Below, piece by piece: positions 12,148-32,546 of a DNA stretch of 34,539 nucleotides. The DNA is from Ignavibacteriaceae bacterium (GTDB lineage: Bacteria > Bacteroidota > Ignavibacteria > Ignavibacteriales > Ignavibacteriaceae). The notes below the pieces were generated by a model. That model saw only the letters and a program-made list of their open reading frames with translations, searched no databases and was not told where the DNA came from. The stretch lies in NCBI GenBank assembly GCA_013359345.1, contig JABWCA010000011.1, forward strand, positions 1-34,539. Direction: 5' to 3'. Within the stretch, counting starts at the first letter, position 1. Every line of letters begins with the position of its first letter. Both the position numbers and the translations under genes were made by a program.

Positions 12148-12178
12148 AAAAAACCGTCCCGCAGGGGACGGTTTTTTT
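12148..12178 (-). terminator. Rho-independent terminator of the Spy-like gene
   Basis: ACCGTCCC and GGGACGGT form a strong GC stem around a GCAG-like loop, flanked by A-runs and T-runs on both sides. On the minus strand the T-run follows the stem just after the Spy-like gene stop at 12194. It could also work in the plus direction, but no plus-strand gene ends here. Confidence 0.9.
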
Positions 12179-12193
12179 ATCACTTCCGATACC

Positions 12194-12736
12194 TTATCTC
12201 GGGCAGAAAGGTCCTCTCGGGCCGTCAAAATCCCCGCCTCTGAATTTCATGCCTCTTCCGCCGCCATGAAATCCGTAACCGCCTTTACCGGGTCCGTCAC
12301 CGCCGCAAGGTCCTAATCCTTTACCAAAGCCATTTCCTCTGCCGGGTCTGTTTAACTTAAATTTCAGCCATTCAGTCTTTTGCGCGTCATCCAGAACATT
12401 GAGCACGGCTGCCTCATGAGAATCACGTTCCTCTTTCATTTTCTCTCTGACTTCCTGCATCTGATCTTTCATTTTGTTATATTCACTTACAGTAATATTG
12501 TCTTTTCTGCCGAGAGCTCTCATGTCGATAGCGAGTTTCTGAATCTCATCACGATATGACATCATCTTATCCCAGTGAGCAGTACGGATATCATCCAGCT
12601 TCTTTTCCTGGTCATCGGTAAGATTTAATTTGTCATGCAGCCATCTGAAGTGAGGAGCCGGCTGAGCAAAAGTGCCTGATATTGCAAGCATCAGAAATGA
12701 GATCATTAGGATCGCGAATAACCTGACCTTTTTCAT
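12194..12736 (-). CDS. Spy/CpxP-like periplasmic protein (LTxxQ family) with Gly-rich tail
   Basis: 180 aa. A signal peptide (about 1-24, ending GTFAQ) sends it to the periplasm. Residues about 30-130 are mainly helical and charged, with LNLTDDQEKKL (37-47) and VLNVLDDAQKTEW as the two LTxxQ-like repeats of the Spy/CpxP/ZraP superfamily. The last 50 residues are a Gly/Arg/Phe/His-rich tail (GKGGYGFHGGGRGMKF) with two Cys, unlike E. coli Spy; a metal-binding or disordered role is possible. AAGGAAAG precedes the ATG. The gene is divergent from the ECF sigma gene across 151 bp with repeated half-sites and may be a target of that sigma factor. Confidence 0.85.
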   Translation of the reverse strand: MKKVRLFAILMISFLMLAISGTFAQPAPHFRWLHDKLNLTDDQEKKLDDIRTAHWDKMMSYRDEIQKLAIDMRALGRKDNITVSEYNKMKDQMQEVREKMKEERDSHEAAVLNVLDDAQKTEWLKFKLNRPGRGNGFGKGLGPCGGDGPGKGGYGFHGGGRGMKFRGGDFDGPRGPFCPR

Positions 12737-12793
12737 TATGTCTTTCCTTCATTTTATGATTAATTTGTGCGTTTCTGAAGGTTTGACAGGCAG

Positions 12794-12841
12794 ATTAACC
12801 GTTATGGTTTAATTCTGTAAAAATTTAAGACCAATTAAACC
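12794..12841. promoter_or_regulatory. Three related half-sites between divergent Spy-like and sigma genes
   Basis: GGTTTAATT (12806-12814) and AATTAAACC (12833-12841) are exact reverse complements 18 bases apart. A third, shorter half-site, ATTAACC (12794-12800), faces the first. They lie between the divergent starts at 12736 and 12888, and the right half-site begins about 47 bp before the sigma gene. They could be an operator or overlapping promoter elements recognised by the encoded sigma factor. Confidence 0.45.
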
Positions 12842-12887
12842 TTTTATGAATTTTAGTTGTCATACTATCAAATAATATCCGGTGTTG

Positions 12888-13445
12888 ATGAATATTAAAA
12901 CAGATGATGCGGTTCTTGTTGAAGAGTTTCTTAAGGGAGATGAATCCGCGTTTAATCTGATTGTTATAAAGTACCGTCAGAGAATTTACTGGCACGCAAG
13001 AAGGATGACAGGAAACCATTTTGATGCTGATGAAGTATTACAGGAAGTTCTGATTGTTCTTTATGAAAAGCTCGGTAACTTCAGAAGCAAATCTTCACTC
13101 TACACCTGGATATATAAAATTACAAGCACCCGGGCAATAAACTTACTGAGGCGCAATAAAGTGAGGTCGTTTTTTTCAATTGATGATGATGACCGGCCTG
13201 ATATACCCGGGGAAGATGATATTCTGGGGAATCTTGAAAACAAGGAAAAACTGAGCCTGCTTGATTCGGTATTGCAGAAACTGCCTGAAAAGCAGAGAGA
13301 GGTTTTTATACTGAGACATTTTGATGAGCTCTCTTACGAGGAAATAGCAGAGATTACCGGTAAGAGTGTCGGAGGTTTGAAAGCAAATTATTTCCACGCA
13401 GCCAGGAGAGTGGCTGAACTGATGGAGGAATATAATGAAAAATGA
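12888..13445 (+). CDS. ECF-type RNA polymerase sigma factor (sigma-70 family)
   Basis: 185 aa from ATG at 12888; GTG at 12882 and TTG at 12885 in the same frame are less likely starts. Region 2 spans about 20-90 with ADEVLQEVLIVLYEKL and RSSLYTWIYKI-type sequence (here KSSLYTWIYKITSTRAINLLRR). Region 4 spans about 125-180 with KLPEKQREVFILRHFDELSY and the helix-turn-helix EEIAEITGKSVGGLKANYFHA. No region 1 or 3 is present, as expected for group 4. The stop overlaps the start of the next gene by 11 bp. A membrane-anchored anti-sigma candidate and a Spy-like protein follow, the order expected for an envelope-signal sigma system. Confidence 0.94.
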   Translation: MNIKTDDAVLVEEFLKGDESAFNLIVIKYRQRIYWHARRMTGNHFDADEVLQEVLIVLYEKLGNFRSKSSLYTWIYKITSTRAINLLRRNKVRSFFSIDDDDRPDIPGEDDILGNLENKEKLSLLDSVLQKLPEKQREVFILRHFDELSYEEIAEITGKSVGGLKANYFHAARRVAELMEEYNEK

Positions 13446-14049
13446 TATGTTCGGAAGATATTTTGACGGCGGTATGACAGAAAAGGAAAAGGCTGAGTTC
13501 GAAAAGCTGATTGCCTTTGATGAATCCGTAAAAAGAGAATATGAAAAATTTGCTGCATCAATGCAACTGATCAGATCTGCATCACAGCTTACTGCTGATG
13601 AGGCATATCTCAGCGAAGCTCTGGTAAGAGCCAGAACAAAGATTCAGGCAAAAAAGGAAAAGAAACTGAACTTTATATTCAGGCCGGCTTATTCACTTAC
13701 AATGGTTTCGGTGATGCTGACCCTGCTGCTGGTGTATACCTCATCAAACAACAGGATTATAAGAAATGAATTAAGCAATTCAGTATCTGAGAGCCTGCAG
13801 GTTGAGAATATGCAGAAGGAACTGCTGCTCAGTGAAGAATCAGTAAGCAACGAAAATCTGGCTGAGTCATTAAATGATAACGATGTGAAAAAGCTGGATA
13901 CTGAAATTAAAGATAAGTTAGGAATTGAAAAGAACGAGGTGGTGATAGCCAAAGCTTATGATATTGATGTGAAGGAACTTGCCGAAGAGGTGAGCGCCGA
14001 TGAGCTTGATAATATCCTTGAAAAACTGGATAAAGAATTTGAATTATAG
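13435..14049 (+). CDS. Candidate membrane anti-sigma factor
   Basis: 204 aa, not recognised at family level. Residues about 1-80 are charged and helical (FDGGMTEKEKAEFEKLI, then DESVKREYEKFAAS), resembling the cytosolic part of short anti-sigma proteins. One membrane span lies at about 84-102 (YSLTMVSVMLTLLLVYTSS). The last 100 residues are acidic, presumably periplasmic and coiled-coil-prone. There is no HxxxCxxC zinc motif. The start overlaps the sigma gene by 11 bp and has GAGG upstream, so the two are translationally coupled. The anti-sigma role rests on topology and position. Confidence 0.75.
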   Translation: MKNDMFGRYFDGGMTEKEKAEFEKLIAFDESVKREYEKFAASMQLIRSASQLTADEAYLSEALVRARTKIQAKKEKKLNFIFRPAYSLTMVSVMLTLLLVYTSSNNRIIRNELSNSVSESLQVENMQKELLLSEESVSNENLAESLNDNDVKKLDTEIKDKLGIEKNEVVIAKAYDIDVKELAEEVSADELDNILEKLDKEFEL

Positions 14050-14064
14050 GAGTCTTATAATAAT

Positions 14065-14562
14065 ATGAAATACTTTTTAATCTTAACCCTGTTATTAATC
14101 GGTCTTGATAACATTTATGCACAACCGGGACCCGGACCCGGAGGTGGAAAACACCGCTGGAAAGACGGGCTTGGTGATAACCCCAAGGCATACGAGAAAA
14201 TTGAACAGCTTGAAAAGCTAAAGCTGATTGAAATACTCGATATGGATGAGGAGACCACACTTAAATTTTTCAGCAGAAGGAAAGATTTTAAGGAAAAGTT
14301 CGGAGATATAAATAAGCAGATTGATGACCTTATACAGGGCACTCTGCCTGAGATCAGAAAAGACGGAAAAAAGGATGATGCCTACTATAAAAACTTTGTT
14401 TCCGAAATGCTGAGACTGCAGAAAGAGGCCGGAAAAACAAGAGAGGATTTTATTAATTCTTTGTATGGACTGTTATCTCCGCTGCAGATTGCAAAATATA
14501 TAGTTTTTGAACGCCGATTCAGGGAAGAACTGAAAGAACTGCTTCTTGAAGGCAGAAACTAA
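14065..14562 (+). CDS. Spy/CpxP-like periplasmic protein, third gene of the sigma operon
   Basis: 165 aa. Signal peptide about 1-19 (MKYFLILTLLLIGLDNIYA), then a Pro/Gly segment (QPGPGPGGGKHRW) and an all-helical charged domain. LEKLKLIEILDMDEETTLKF and LYGLLSPLQIAKYIVFERRF correspond to the paired LTxxQ-like segments of Spy/CpxP/CnrX proteins. TAGGAG precedes the ATG, and the gene begins 15 bp after the anti-sigma candidate. In the CnrYXH nickel/cobalt system a protein of this superfamily (CnrX) senses metal in the periplasm and acts on the anti-sigma CnrY; a similar job is inferred here from gene order. Confidence 0.8.
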   Translation: MKYFLILTLLLIGLDNIYAQPGPGPGGGKHRWKDGLGDNPKAYEKIEQLEKLKLIEILDMDEETTLKFFSRRKDFKEKFGDINKQIDDLIQGTLPEIRKDGKKDDAYYKNFVSEMLRLQKEAGKTREDFINSLYGLLSPLQIAKYIVFERRFREELKELLLEGRN

Positions 14563-15107: not shown

Positions 15108-15192
15108 GCGGAAGTGGCGGAACTGGTAGACGCGCACGTTTGAGGGGCGTGTGAGGCAACTCGTACGGGTTCAAGTCCCGTCTTCCGCACCA
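15108..15192 (+). tRNA. tRNA-Leu (anticodon GAG)
   Basis: Complete 85-nt class II tRNA. The acceptor stem GCGGAAG (15108-15114) pairs with CTTCCGC (15182-15188), followed by A73 and an encoded CCA. The anticodon loop reads TTGAGGG with GAG at 15142-15144, closed by CACGT and GCGTG-type pairing. The long variable arm (TGAGGCAACTCGT region) and the T-loop GGTTCAAGTCC are present. It decodes CUC and CUU. Confidence 0.97.
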
Positions 15193-28168: not shown

Positions 28169-28304
28169 TAGTGTTCCGTTTTAAGTTTTTGTTAATAGTG
28201 AAAAATAGTAAAACAGGGGGAGTTAAGAAAACCCGCAGCATAAGGAATTGAAGATTGAGTAAAAATTGATAGATTTAAACATTCAAAAAACAGAAATAAT
28301 CACG

Positions 28305-30014
28305 ATGAAAAAAGAACTCCCGGTAAGTTCATCAAACTACGAATCCCTCATTTTATCAAACGGCTATTACGCGGATAAGACCCCTTATTTACCCGTGCTT
28401 GAAAAAAATGAGAACCAGAATGTTTTCCTGCTGCGTCCAAGGAGATTCGGGAAATCACTTTTCCTCTCAACTCTCGAAGCTTATTACGGAGTTCAGTATT
28501 CTGATAAATTTGCTGTACTGTTCGGTGAAACCGCGGCAGGAAAAAACCCCACTGCCTCCCGGAACAGTTATCAGATACTCAAATTTGATTTCTCGGGAAT
28601 AGTAACTCATTCAGCCGATGACATACTTGATTCTTTTAATTCAAGAATTCATAACGGACTCAGAGAGTTTACATCAAACTACGGATTTATGGAAAAAGAG
28701 GAGCTTGAAACAGTTCTCTCTTCTAAATATGCCGGTACAATTCTCAGTGAATTTATTTCCAGAATCCAGCTCAATGGCTTCAGGGGGAAGATTTTTTTGC
28801 TCATAGATGAGTATGATCATTTTGCCAATGAGTTATTTTCATTTGACAGAGCTCATTTCAGGGACATCGTCTCAGGGAACGGCTGGGTACGGAAATTCTA
28901 TGAAACAGTCAAATATTTCATCGGAGCAGGAATCATAACCAGATTTTTTGCAACAGGAGTAACGCCTGTTACGCTTGACAGTATGACAAGCGGGTTCAAT
29001 ATTGCAAGAAATATCAGCCTTGAACCCCAGTTCAGTAACATTTGCGGGTTCAGTGAAGCGGAAATCAGGAATATGATAAGCCTTACCGTACCGGATGAGC
29101 TTTCAGTAACTGCAGATAATCTGATCCCTGATCTCCGCGCATGGTACAACGGAAGCAGTTTTACATTTAACAGAGATGAAAAAATTTATAACCCAAGGCT
29201 TATTATCCATTTTCTGACGGCATTTTACTCAGAGGGTACCTATCCCAGGGAAATGACTGATATAAATGTTACGTCAGACTATTCTAAAATCGGTAATATT
29301 TTCAGGACCCTTCCGCCCGAATCTGCAAGGTTCATTCTTGAAGAAATCATCACAAAAGAAGAAATTGATGCGGGACTGACATTACAATTCAATCCCGATC
29401 TGACTTACGGTATCACTGAAGCTGTTTCACTACTCTATTATAACGGACTCCTGACAATTAAAAACGAAAAGCTCGATCTGGTCAGATATGTAATTCCCAA
29501 TAATGTTATCAGACAGATTTACAGAGGTTATCTGAGGGATACACTTGAAAAAACAGGAAACCTCCTTATTGATATGACAGAAACAGGTCATATATTCTCT
29601 GAGATGGCATACAACGGTAACACAGCCCCACTAATAAGTCTTATCGAAAAAATCACCGGTTCCTTATCTGACAGAGATTTCATGAATTACCGTGAGAGTA
29701 ACCTTAAAATGATTATTCTCAGCATCTTTGCAAAGTCTAATGCCTGGTTTGTGTTTTCAGAGTTCGCGTGTGGTAACGGTTATGCAGACCTCTGGTTTGA
29801 GCGCACGGAATTTAATGACGGGATGTTTGAATACCTGATTGAACTTAAGTACATCAGGAAAGAGGATGAAGCAAAATATGAATTTGTGAAAGAAGAAGGA
29901 ATTGCGCAATTGAAACGTTATTTATCTTCTGATTATTTTAAGCACAGAAAAAATGTAATTCCCATTCTTTTACTTCAGCATAATAAAGGCACCGTTGATT
30001 CTGTAAGACTCTGA
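28305..30014 (+). CDS. AAA-ATPase-like / PD-(D/E)XK nuclease-like protein (DUF1703 type)
   Basis: 569 aa from ATG at 28305. A TTG at 28266 extends the frame but adds 13 residues before the usual family start (SSSNYESLILSNGYYADKTP). Residues about 1-350 are the AAA-ATPase_like domain: NVFLLRPRRFGKSLFLSTLE is Walker A, KIFLLIDEYDHF is Walker B. Residues about 480-560 are the PD-(D/E)XK-like domain: GNGYADLWFERTE (Asp) and YLIELKYIRKED (ExK). The family is often present in many copies in Bacteroidota and anaerobes. Its biological role is not established; mobile or defence roles have been suggested from distribution. It stands alone between the peptidase and copper genes. Confidence 0.92.
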   Translation: MKKELPVSSSNYESLILSNGYYADKTPYLPVLEKNENQNVFLLRPRRFGKSLFLSTLEAYYGVQYSDKFAVLFGETAAGKNPTASRNSYQILKFDFSGIVTHSADDILDSFNSRIHNGLREFTSNYGFMEKEELETVLSSKYAGTILSEFISRIQLNGFRGKIFLLIDEYDHFANELFSFDRAHFRDIVSGNGWVRKFYETVKYFIGAGIITRFFATGVTPVTLDSMTSGFNIARNISLEPQFSNICGFSEAEIRNMISLTVPDELSVTADNLIPDLRAWYNGSSFTFNRDEKIYNPRLIIHFLTAFYSEGTYPREMTDINVTSDYSKIGNIFRTLPPESARFILEEIITKEEIDAGLTLQFNPDLTYGITEAVSLLYYNGLLTIKNEKLDLVRYVIPNNVIRQIYRGYLRDTLEKTGNLLIDMTETGHIFSEMAYNGNTAPLISLIEKITGSLSDRDFMNYRESNLKMIILSIFAKSNAWFVFSEFACGNGYADLWFERTEFNDGMFEYLIELKYIRKEDEAKYEFVKEEGIAQLKRYLSSDYFKHRKNVIPILLLQHNKGTVDSVRL

Positions 30015-30332: not shown

Positions 30333-32546
30333 ATGGAATTTCAGAGGATTACCGTACCCGTTGAGGGTATGACCTGCGCAGCATGTGTGAGCAGGGTTGA
30401 AAAAGTTCTGGCAAAGGTTGAAGGGGTCAAAAATGTATCGGTGAATCTCGGTACAGAAACAGCCTCATTTGACATAGATGCAGATGTATTCAGCAAGGAA
30501 ACCGCCTCTGAAAAGCTGTCAAAATTCGGATATGAAATTAAATTCATCCGTGATGAAAAAAGCAGCGCCGGGGATCAGACTATCATAAATCAAAGCGACT
30601 ATGATGTATCGCTGAAAAAAGATTTCATTACAGCTCTGATTTTCACGATACCCGTCTTTCTGCTCAATATGGGGATGATGTTTGATTTCTTCTATAAAAT
30701 AATACCCCTCACCCCTGATCAGGTCAATAAAGTTCTCCTTATTCTTACCACCCCCGTTGTGTTTATCCCGGGAAAAAGATTTTTTTCGGTCTTCTGGAAA
30801 AATATAAGACACTTCTCAGCAGATATGAACACCCTGGTGGCTATCGGGACGGGATCAGCATTCACATACAGTACACTGTTAACACTTTTCCCAGAGATTT
30901 TTCCGCACGGAGGACACGGCGCGCACGTGTATTACGATACATCAGCCGTTATTATCACTCTCATTCTGATGGGTAAATTCCTTGAATACAGAGCGAGAAA
31001 GAAAACATCTGATGAGATAAAGAAGCTGATTGAACTAACCCCGGCTACCGCAGAGGTGCGCAGAAACGGATCGGTAATCACTGTGAAAGCAGAGGATCTG
31101 AAATCGGGTGATACTGTGATTGTAAAGCCCGGCGGTAAAATTCCGGCTGACGGTACGGTTACCGAAGGTTTCACCACTGTTGATGAATCCATGCTCACAG
31201 GCGAAAGCATCCCTGCCGAAAAAATTCCGGGGAAAGATGTGACCGGAGGAACCCTGAATCTTAACGGCACGATTGAGTTCACCGTAAAAGCCACCGGTGA
31301 TAATTCAACCCTTGGAAGAATCATTAAATATGTGAGGGAAGCCCAGTCATCCAAGGCACCCATACAGGATCTGGCAGATAAAGTTGCTGCCGTTTTTGTG
31401 CCTGTGGTGATAGGTATAGCCGTTTTCTCATTTGCAGGATGGATGATAGCAGGGGGAGAGAATTCATTTTCTCACGCACTGAATAATTTTATTGCCGTGC
31501 TGATCATTGCATGCCCCTGCTCTCTGGGACTTGCAACTCCCGCGGCGCTCATAACCGGAATAGGGCTTGGCGCTTCTACGGGGATCCTGATCAAAAACGG
31601 TAAAGTTCTTGAAGAGGCTAAAAAACTTGATTATCTGGTACTTGATAAAACAGGCACAGTAACACTCGGAAAGCCTGAAGTCAGGAAAATTGAAATTTTA
31701 AATGGTGAAGAGCAGACGGTGCTGAACTCATTGTTTGCGCTTGAAAATCTTTCAAATCATCCGTTATCCAAAGCTGTGACAGGATACCTGGATGGCAAAA
31801 CCACCGAAATACCGAAGTGCACTGATTTTACTTACATTCCGGCCGGCGGAATAAAAGGTGTTATAAACGGCACGGAAGTTAAAGCGGGAACAGGTAAATT
31901 TCTTGAGGATCACGGGGTTGATACTCAGTCACTCATCACAGATGAAGACGGATATGGCGCCAGAGTATATTTTGCCGAAGGCAATACACTTAAAGCCATT
32001 GTATACATTGAGGATTCTGTTGTTGAAGGCGCCCTTGATGCCATAAAAGAGATTAAAAAAATGGGGATTAAACCCGTGATGCTTTCGGGTGATTCTCATG
32101 AGAATGTCAGACGAGTTGCAGCAGAGATCGGGATTGAAGAATATCAGTCGGGACTCCTGCCGCAGGATAAAGCCGACTATATTTCCGCACTCAGGCTTAA
32201 GGGGCACAAAGTAGGTATGATCGGCGATGGCGTTAATGATGCCCCCGCACTTGCAACAAGCGATGTTTCGGTTGCAGTGGGGCACGGCAGTGAAGCCGCA
32301 ATTGAAACTGCCGAGATTACAGTGCTTTCAGGTCATATATCTGATGTCCCGAAGGCGATCAGACTTTCGGGGATAACACTCACCGCAATAAAGCAGAATC
32401 TTTTCTGGGCATTCTTTTACAATATCATCGGGATACCTCTGGCAGCCGCCGGATTGCTTGATCCAATGATTGCAGCACTTGCAATGTCACTTAGTTCTGT
32501 ATCAGTCGTCTCAAACTCTTTAAGAATCAGGCTTAAAAAACTTTAA
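30333..32546 (+). CDS. copA: Cu(+)-exporting P1B-type ATPase
   Basis: 737 aa with one N-terminal HMA domain (GMTCAACVSRV, Cys15 and Cys18) and eight membrane spans. Ordered marks are TGES (289-292), membrane CPC (394-396, in ACPCSLGLATP), DKTGT with phosphorylated Asp438, NHP near 475-477 in the nucleotide domain and GDGVNDAP (631-638). Spans 7 and 8 have YN (696-697) and MSLSS (718-722), the extra ligands of the Cu(I)/Ag(I) P1B-1 group. A His-rich loop (FPHGGHGAH) precedes span 4. It should pump Cu(I) from cytosol to periplasm, supplied by the upstream chaperone. Confidence 0.96.
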   Translation: MEFQRITVPVEGMTCAACVSRVEKVLAKVEGVKNVSVNLGTETASFDIDADVFSKETASEKLSKFGYEIKFIRDEKSSAGDQTIINQSDYDVSLKKDFITALIFTIPVFLLNMGMMFDFFYKIIPLTPDQVNKVLLILTTPVVFIPGKRFFSVFWKNIRHFSADMNTLVAIGTGSAFTYSTLLTLFPEIFPHGGHGAHVYYDTSAVIITLILMGKFLEYRARKKTSDEIKKLIELTPATAEVRRNGSVITVKAEDLKSGDTVIVKPGGKIPADGTVTEGFTTVDESMLTGESIPAEKIPGKDVTGGTLNLNGTIEFTVKATGDNSTLGRIIKYVREAQSSKAPIQDLADKVAAVFVPVVIGIAVFSFAGWMIAGGENSFSHALNNFIAVLIIACPCSLGLATPAALITGIGLGASTGILIKNGKVLEEAKKLDYLVLDKTGTVTLGKPEVRKIEILNGEEQTVLNSLFALENLSNHPLSKAVTGYLDGKTTEIPKCTDFTYIPAGGIKGVINGTEVKAGTGKFLEDHGVDTQSLITDEDGYGARVYFAEGNTLKAIVYIEDSVVEGALDAIKEIKKMGIKPVMLSGDSHENVRRVAAEIGIEEYQSGLLPQDKADYISALRLKGHKVGMIGDGVNDAPALATSDVSVAVGHGSEAAIETAEITVLSGHISDVPKAIRLSGITLTAIKQNLFWAFFYNIIGIPLAAAGLLDPMIAALAMSLSSVSVVSNSLRIRLKKL

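Follow-up and report, generated by a model that had tools for sequence, protein, structure and literature searches.

How envelope damage is detected in the Bacteroidota is, to our knowledge, poorly known, and the question is raised here by a group of four genes between positions 12,194 and 14,562 of contig JABWCA010000011.1 (assembly GCA_013359345.1, Ignavibacteriaceae bacterium). The whole stretch that was analysed, 34,539 nucleotides, is called the window; it is part of a 4.26 Mb draft genome, in which it is our contig C13. A gene for an extracytoplasmic function (ECF) sigma factor is followed on the same strand by one for a single-span membrane protein, here called the anti-sigma factor, and by a third gene, for a predicted exported protein related to Spy; a second Spy-like gene is divergent from these three. 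All four sit where a first-pass annotation, made from the sequence alone, had placed them when it proposed a module resembling CnrYXH. Could the third protein be the sensor of this module, and of what? We think it reasonably probable that the locus encodes an autoregulated envelope-stress module, with the third protein as a sensor of the RseB or CpxP kind. Such a module would be a testable candidate, in which a sigma factor, an anti-sigma factor and a putative sensor come with a defined promoter and a set of listed targets.

The first question is whether the genes belong together. Within the class, the third-gene protein was found in 57 of 59 genomes (own genome included), and in all 51 with completeness of at least 90% and contamination of at most 5%. 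Inspection of 30 third-gene neighbourhoods placed the sigma gene upstream in 29, and in the remaining one the contig ends. Owing to its fast divergence, the anti-sigma factor was picked up by BLAST in only 19 of these 30 loci. As loci were not to be picked via the Spy-like gene, the sigma alignment served as the sole query against public genomes; it gave 150 relatives, and the top 80 went into the analysis (by their record titles, members of the Ignavibacteria and their relatives, or of wider groups such as Bacteroidetes only). The loci are counted below as non-independent events, and the profiles (A1–A3) were built from relatives some of which may be the very genomes of these loci. The anti-sigma profile matched directly downstream of the sigma gene in 80/80 loci and the Spy-like profile next after it in 76/80, the remaining four contigs stopping there. 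The three genes are contiguous at all 76 loci where the contig continues. The three roles and the single operon of the first-pass annotation are supported, and so is conservation of the gene order. A divergent open reading frame (ORF) was present in 76 of the 79 loci with upstream sequence, and 75 of these were Spy/LTXXQ-like by eye; L104 has an unrelated divergent gene, and L041, L096 and L098 have no divergent ORF.

The search was extended to a sample of 296 genomes of the phylum, using profiles. The third-gene profile matched 96 of them. A broader profile, with distant members added, matched 175, among which weak matches may be other Spy proteins; it covers 68 of the 73 class genomes, provided that no others in the class lack a match beyond the five listed. 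Among 20 distant regions, 19 carry the sigma gene, the middle gene and the third gene in this order, and the last one (L233) has an LTXXQ gene without sigma. The order is kept in 20/20 further distant regions, although in one of them the middle gene is so long that the spacing rule of the script did not cover it. These 40 regions had been selected via the third gene, a bias avoided by starting from the sigma gene: 234 of the 296 genomes gave a sigma match at 1e-25, and among the 149 best places listed, 134 are followed on the same strand, at a distance of 200–1500 bases, by the third gene (28/28 in the order, 36/41 in the rest of the class and 70/80 outside the class). The 15 misses are genomes without a listed third-gene place. 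Conservation in class and phylum rules out a chance alignment of unrelated neighbouring genes, and it disposes of the possibility, left open in the first-pass annotation, that the Spy-like gene is not kept beside the sigma and anti-sigma genes.

The divergent gene is distributed differently. In both sets of distant cassettes, 19 and 20 in number, the divergent Spy profile detected no divergent gene (for one of them, L226, the search covered less than 500 bases upstream of the sigma gene). Because the three-gene unit recurs across much of the phylum and the divergent Spy gene was not found in these 39 cassettes, the unit looks ancient, and the divergent gene looks like a later addition.

Table 1. 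Features of the sigma locus, with positions in the window
Feature	Position	Strand	Basis and remarks
Divergent gene, Spy/LTXXQ (Metal_resist) periplasmic protein	12194-12736	-	Pfam; Gly-rich tail with 2 Cys and 1 His
Predicted divergent Spy promoter	12812-12782	-	TTAAACC (12812-12806), N17, TGTCAAA (12788-12782)
Predicted sigma-operon promoter	12835-12864	+	TTAAACC (12835-12841), N16, TGTCATA (12858-12864)
ECF sigma factor gene	12882-13445	+	Sigma70_r2 and r4_2; start GTG 12882 or ATG 12888
Anti-sigma factor gene	13435-14049	+	Cytoplasmic part about 1-80, span 81-99, periplasmic part about 105 residues; orientation inferred
Third operon gene, predicted soluble periplasmic Spy-superfamily protein, proposed sensor/co-inhibitor	14065-14562	+	Model and profile homology

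What kind of protein is encoded by the third gene? It has 165 residues and a signal peptide, and is predicted to be exported. Among its homologues, a small residue followed by Gln is found at positions 11–35 in 75/76, and no later span in 76/76; as judged from these sequences, the third protein is soluble and periplasmic, without membrane anchor. The window protein matched no Pfam family above cut-off, and the anti-sigma factor gave only a weak ‘antisigma’ match in NCBIfam (E 0.079), with no sequence family over cut-off; the roles of both were therefore approached by other means. Alignment of the third-gene and divergent families by hhalign gave a probability of 98.8 (E 4e-17, 134 columns, 12% identity), the aligned part being partly signal peptide, and the third-gene profile picked up divergent Spy genes in whole genomes with E near 1e-7. 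By such profile homology, the third protein can be assigned to the Spy/CpxP/LTXXQ superfamily. It is a diverged member: at E <= 0.01, single third-gene proteins match Metal_resist in 7/77 cases (best 1.4e-5) and LTXXQ in 1/77, versus 70/76 and 68/76 at E <= 1e-3 for the divergent proteins (the 75 above and that of the window).

The structural model of the third protein is all-helical, with four helices and a mean predicted local confidence (pLDDT) of 88.5. The top Foldseek match is a Salmonella ‘VirG-like’ protein (E 0.07); many CnrX chains follow with probability 0.82–0.99, the best with a target template modelling (TM) score of 0.73, at E 0.16 or worse. A search of the PDB with the third-gene profile returned weak matches, mostly to repetitive or coiled chains, with one plausible relative (5ihf, E 0.006). 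Among 16 members from across the phylum, invariance is limited to two Phe and to the Gln that follows the signal peptide, and in the class no His, Cys or Met column is kept in more than 40% of the family, the start Met excepted.

To single out the sensor, a mirror-tree analysis was made on the 71 of the 80 loci that had all five parts. The partial correlation between the periplasmic part of the anti-sigma factor and the third protein was 0.449, versus a maximum of 0.096 in permutations, and the third protein co-varied more with the periplasmic than with the cytoplasmic part (99% of bootstraps). This co-variation supports a periplasmic partnership of the two proteins.

The sigma factor itself is of ECF type by its domain content, having only regions 2 and 4 (Sigma70_r2, PF04542, E 1.4e-14; r4_2, PF08281, E 5.2e-16, both over the Pfam cut-off), and its profile matches AlgU, RpoE and SigW in the PDB. 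The two alternative start codons in Table 1 are equally good. Its ORF overlaps that of the anti-sigma factor by 11 bases, and 15 bases separate the latter from the third gene. The single span of the anti-sigma factor was located by a crude hydropathy scan. One span is also predicted in 70/76 homologues, and two in 6/76; in the single-span homologues the span begins near residue 83 and about 101 residues follow (medians). The model of the anti-sigma factor is of lower quality (mean pLDDT 76.9, predicted TM score 0.34), with helices at 2–11, 16–28, 30–50 and from 56. Of its six listed Foldseek matches, five are anti-sigma domains: RsiW came with probability 0.99 and E 0.08, MucA and RseA with E 5 or worse. 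Class I anti-sigma domains, of which RseA, RsiW and ChrR are examples, consist of a three-helix bundle and one more helix. According to passages of PMC7406223, about 56% of them have a zinc motif HxxxCxxC, which is not required; this motif was found in 0/76 of our anti-sigma homologues. In its modelled fold, and in this respect only, the cytoplasmic domain thus resembles class I domains of the RsiW/RseA kind.

Both transcription units seem to start from the same type of promoter (Table 1). We collected 77 upstream regions, four loci having been dropped by a text pattern. TAAACC-N16-TGTC was present on the sigma side in 63/77, with five other spacings occurring once each, and TAAACC-N16/17-TGTC on the opposite strand in 64/77. 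With a looser pattern applied to 81 regions, both promoters were found in 59; among these, 32 have 10 or 11 bases between the divergent -35 boxes, and 41 have 8–13, the window having 22. Paired -35 boxes are therefore often about one DNA turn apart, a geometry in which two polymerases may compete or cooperate. The element persists in distant relatives: TTAAAC lies near the sigma start in 17 of the 19 distant cassettes, against a mean of 2.35 and at most 9 in shuffles, and TTAAAC-N17/18-GTC in 11, against a mean of 0.035 and at most 1; in the 20 further cassettes, TTAAAC was found in 14, a count without shuffle control. The ECF-type motif that PMC9723704 describes for flavobacteria includes a CGT box, and neither TTAAAC nor Spy appears in the main text of that paper.

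The shared promoter type bears on the divergent protein, for which the first-pass annotation had suggested a role as output or second sensor. With its profile finding no divergent gene in the distant cassettes, as said above, the part of output fits, and from sequence it is likely to be an output chaperone. It belongs to known families (Metal_resist, PF13801, E 1e-7; LTXXQ, PF07813, E 5e-7, both over cut-off), and in the PDB it retrieved E. coli Spy (3oeo) at E 0.51 only. In 73/75 of its homologues the last 45 residues include Cys, two or more His, or four or more Met. These tails (e.g. that of L048) are rich in Met, His, Cys, Gly or Lys/Arg, varying by lineage.

Which other genes could be controlled from such promoters? 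In the own genome, a looser motif gave 12 sites versus 2 for the reversed control; in the window this loose motif has no site beyond the promoter pair. Across 41 genomes there are 71 sites of the strict motif and 13 of the reversed control. By reading of the list, 42 of the 71 sites are at the sigma locus and 29 elsewhere (one in the own genome), and the fair count is 29 versus 13, since the motif was learned at the sigma locus. Chance matches were considered as an explanation; position separates the sites clearly from the reversed control, number only about twofold. Thus 22 of the 29 non-locus sites are intergenic, near a start and before a signal- or anchor-like N-terminus, versus 0 or 1 of the 13 control sites, 10 of which are inside ORFs. 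Two of the 29 were scored inside an ORF of at least 150 residues, and for 27 a start codon lies no more than 130 bases away.

The first genes behind these sites were assigned by Pfam. The set comprises 30 genes, 24 of relatives, behind 24 of the 29 non-locus sites, and six behind six of the 12 looser sites of the own genome. Five non-locus sites were left out: L155, where the gene seems by eye to encode an aminotransferase; L163 and L175, which lack a nearby start; L178, with a gene for a small protein; and L182, the second sigma factor. They include OMP_b-brl_3 (7), HlyD, MacB or outer-membrane efflux proteins (5), LTXXQ/Metal_resist (5), proteins with a type IX sorting tail (6) and others (7). 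For comparison, the mean family size per genome in 21 genomes is 8 for OMP_b-brl_3, about 11 for HlyD_D23 and 1.4 for LTXXQ, and 20 of the 30 LTXXQ matches in these 21 genomes are, by reading, the divergent gene itself. A gene for a membrane-fusion protein comes after a Spy-like gene in two relatives (by eye), and one of these genes was confirmed as HlyD_D23 (G007, contig C19). The predicted products of the genes behind the motif are thus mostly exported: Spy/LTXXQ proteins, efflux parts, outer-membrane barrels and type IX cargo.

In the mechanism that we infer, the membrane anti-sigma factor would hold the ECF sigma factor in the unstressed cell through its class-I-like cytoplasmic domain, and the soluble Spy-like third protein would stabilise its periplasmic tail, a part comparable to that of RseB towards RseA or of CpxP towards CpxA. 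Unfolded or mistargeted envelope proteins would occupy the Spy-like protein; the anti-sigma factor would then be released or cut, and the sigma factor freed. Free sigma factor would transcribe its own operon and also the divergent Spy chaperone, the latter from the mirror-image promoter; at other loci, its targets would be Spy/LTXXQ proteins, HlyD/MacB/TolC efflux parts and outer-membrane barrels. What the sequence itself shows is the gene unit with its conservation, the pair of promoters and the largely exported products behind the motif. A sensor role is proposed for the third protein because its gene is fixed beside the sigma gene phylum-wide, because it has diverged from LTXXQ, and because the gene order is that of rpoE-rseA-rseB. 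More tentatively, and with somewhat less than an even chance in our opinion, this could be an ancestral system of Bacteroidota and close relatives, in which a chaperone-type sensor of the Spy superfamily keeps a class-I-like anti-sigma factor closed until misfolded proteins bind, and paired promoters control a paralogue together with export machinery.

Several observations weigh against the envelope-stress reading with the third protein as sensor. The periplasmic part of the anti-sigma factor co-varies nearly as highly with the divergent Spy protein (0.35), and the difference between the third protein and divergent Spy was positive in only 75% of bootstraps, which is not significant; the third gene is not singled out as the partner, because divergent Spy co-varies almost equally. 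In a slower alignment (VIA), the match of the third protein to ZraP, at Z 9.8, was tied with designed helical hairpins, and the list consists mainly of unrelated helical hairpins. The Foldseek matches of the anti-sigma and third-protein models are all weaker than E 1e-3. As to the motif, its excess over the control outside the locus is, as noted, about twofold, 9/41 genomes have no strict motif, and 5/29 non-locus sites are not before an exported protein by the rule of the script. Finally, the passages of PMC13114119 (2026) on the Phocaeicola vulgatus operon CirY/CirZ/Spy take its Spy protein as an output chaperone. Taken together with the sigma-first test, which supports the envelope-stress reading, the motif count weakens it slightly, and our estimate is unchanged.

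According to this published view, the third protein would be output only, a co-transcribed stress chaperone, and the anti-sigma factor would sense damage itself, e.g. by regulated proteolysis of its periplasmic tail. We give this a modest chance. The presence of other Spy/LTXXQ proteins in the candidate regulon and the lack of a distinct co-variation signal for the third gene are in its favour. It is opposed by the fixed position of the third gene at the listed sigma places, when the divergent Spy gene was not found in the distant cassettes, by the divergence of the third protein from Metal_resist and LTXXQ, families that most of the divergent proteins match, and by its co-variation with the periplasmic part of the anti-sigma factor above the cytoplasmic part.

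The motif could also be read by another sigma factor or sigma family, and the wider regulon would then lie outside this module. A second sigma operon of the own genome, on contig C81, lies behind TTAAACC-N16-TGTCAAA, and cross-recognition is possible because the motif precedes it. We nevertheless hold this to be unlikely: the motif is upstream of the present sigma gene in most loci, and TTAAAC is near the orthologue start in the greater part of both sets of distant regions. The contig C81 module (L182/L117) consists of a sigma gene, a 96-codon single-span ORF (stop to stop) and a gene for a membrane-anchored Metal_resist protein, and its topology looks closer to CnrYX than that of the window module.

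How far, then, does the likeness to Cnr go? The name CnrYXH, of Cupriavidus metallidurans, gives the order anti-sigma factor, sensor, sigma factor. The window module shares with it a periplasmic protein of the Spy superfamily, a membrane anti-sigma factor, an ECF sigma factor and efflux genes in the (here putative) regulon. It differs in gene order (sigma, anti-sigma, Spy-like), in a third protein that is soluble and without conserved metal ligands, and in an anti-sigma factor that is class-I-like by fold resemblance. CnrX is described in passages of PMC7689651 as a transmembrane Co/Ni sensor dependent on Met123, and CnrY is given as a class II anti-sigma factor in those of PMC7406223. From the first-pass annotation we therefore retain the layout, with a predicted fold that weakly resembles CnrX and an anti-sigma-like N-terminus, and give up a Cnr-like metal sensor: the module shares the Cnr layout and is no member of Cnr. 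Metal sensing of the CnrYXH kind, in which the Spy-like protein would bind a transition metal and signal via the anti-sigma factor, was set aside as the principal explanation on ligand conservation and topology and appears very improbable, since, although CnrX is among the better fold matches, divergent Spy belongs to Metal_resist with tails rich in possible ligands and efflux adaptor genes lie behind the motif, the third-gene family keeps no His, Cys or Met column, its protein is soluble where CnrX is transmembrane, the gene order and, by fold resemblance, the anti-sigma type are not those of Cnr, and an apparent copper-type P-ATPase at 30333-32546 (by eye) has no motif, the loose motif being found in the window at the promoter pair only. 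The module suggests instead that a Spy-type protein can regulate an anti-sigma factor without metal binding.

Other known systems are closer in one respect or another. In E. coli, rpoE-rseA-rseB has the order sigma factor, membrane anti-sigma factor, periplasmic co-regulator, and the fold of RseB is unrelated to the Spy superfamily; the window module has the same gene order, with RseA among the fold matches of its anti-sigma factor, and differs by its third protein, of the Spy superfamily and modelled all-helical, not of RseB type. Efflux genes are under Bae control in E. coli. As in the Bae and Cpx systems, a Spy-family protein and envelope-export genes would be under envelope-stress control, here through an ECF sigma factor instead of two-component kinases. 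Control of E. coli spy by CpxAR and BaeSR is mentioned in the passages of PMC13114119.

The nearest published case is that of P. vulgatus. As described in the same passages, CirY/CirZ/Spy is a sigma/anti-sigma/spy operon, a second such locus is reported, and deletion of the anti-sigma gene induces most strongly sigma, spy and two downstream genes. Likened by this description, the two modules share the order sigma, anti-sigma, co-transcribed Spy-like gene, autoregulation (predicted for the window module) and the phylum; unlike for the window module, neither a divergent Spy gene nor a promoter motif is mentioned in these passages. The passages of PMC12826043 on the Azospirillum RpoE8 operon list a sigma factor, a hypothetical protein and a ‘periplasmic heavy metal sensor’, by description a similar make-up in another phylum.

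The kind of operon is thus already known, since for P. vulgatus at least a sigma/anti-sigma/Spy operon has been published. A literature search pairing Ignavibacteria with ECF sigma factors found no paper. As far as our searches show, what is new is how deeply the unit is conserved, its paired promoters, the candidate regulon and the argument for a sensor that works without metal. Flavobacterial third genes are annotated ‘sensor of ECF-type sigma factor’, a phrase that does not occur in the 25 papers listed of the 84 matched in the literature search.

Finally, some features around the locus were noted. A likely terminator, seen by eye as a hairpin then a T-run, lies at about 12150-12178 between the divergent Spy gene and an RlpA-like gene. 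Window positions 28266-30014 encode an AAA-ATPase-like protein, presumably of the kind of PF09820, which it resembles by eye. Downstream of the operon come a tRNA-Leu (gag) at 15108-15192 and, up to 18198, tetratricopeptide repeat (TPR), carboxymuconolactone decarboxylase-like and DUF92/phytol-kinase-like genes (the last by eye); similar genes are seen, by eye, downstream of the operon in several relatives.

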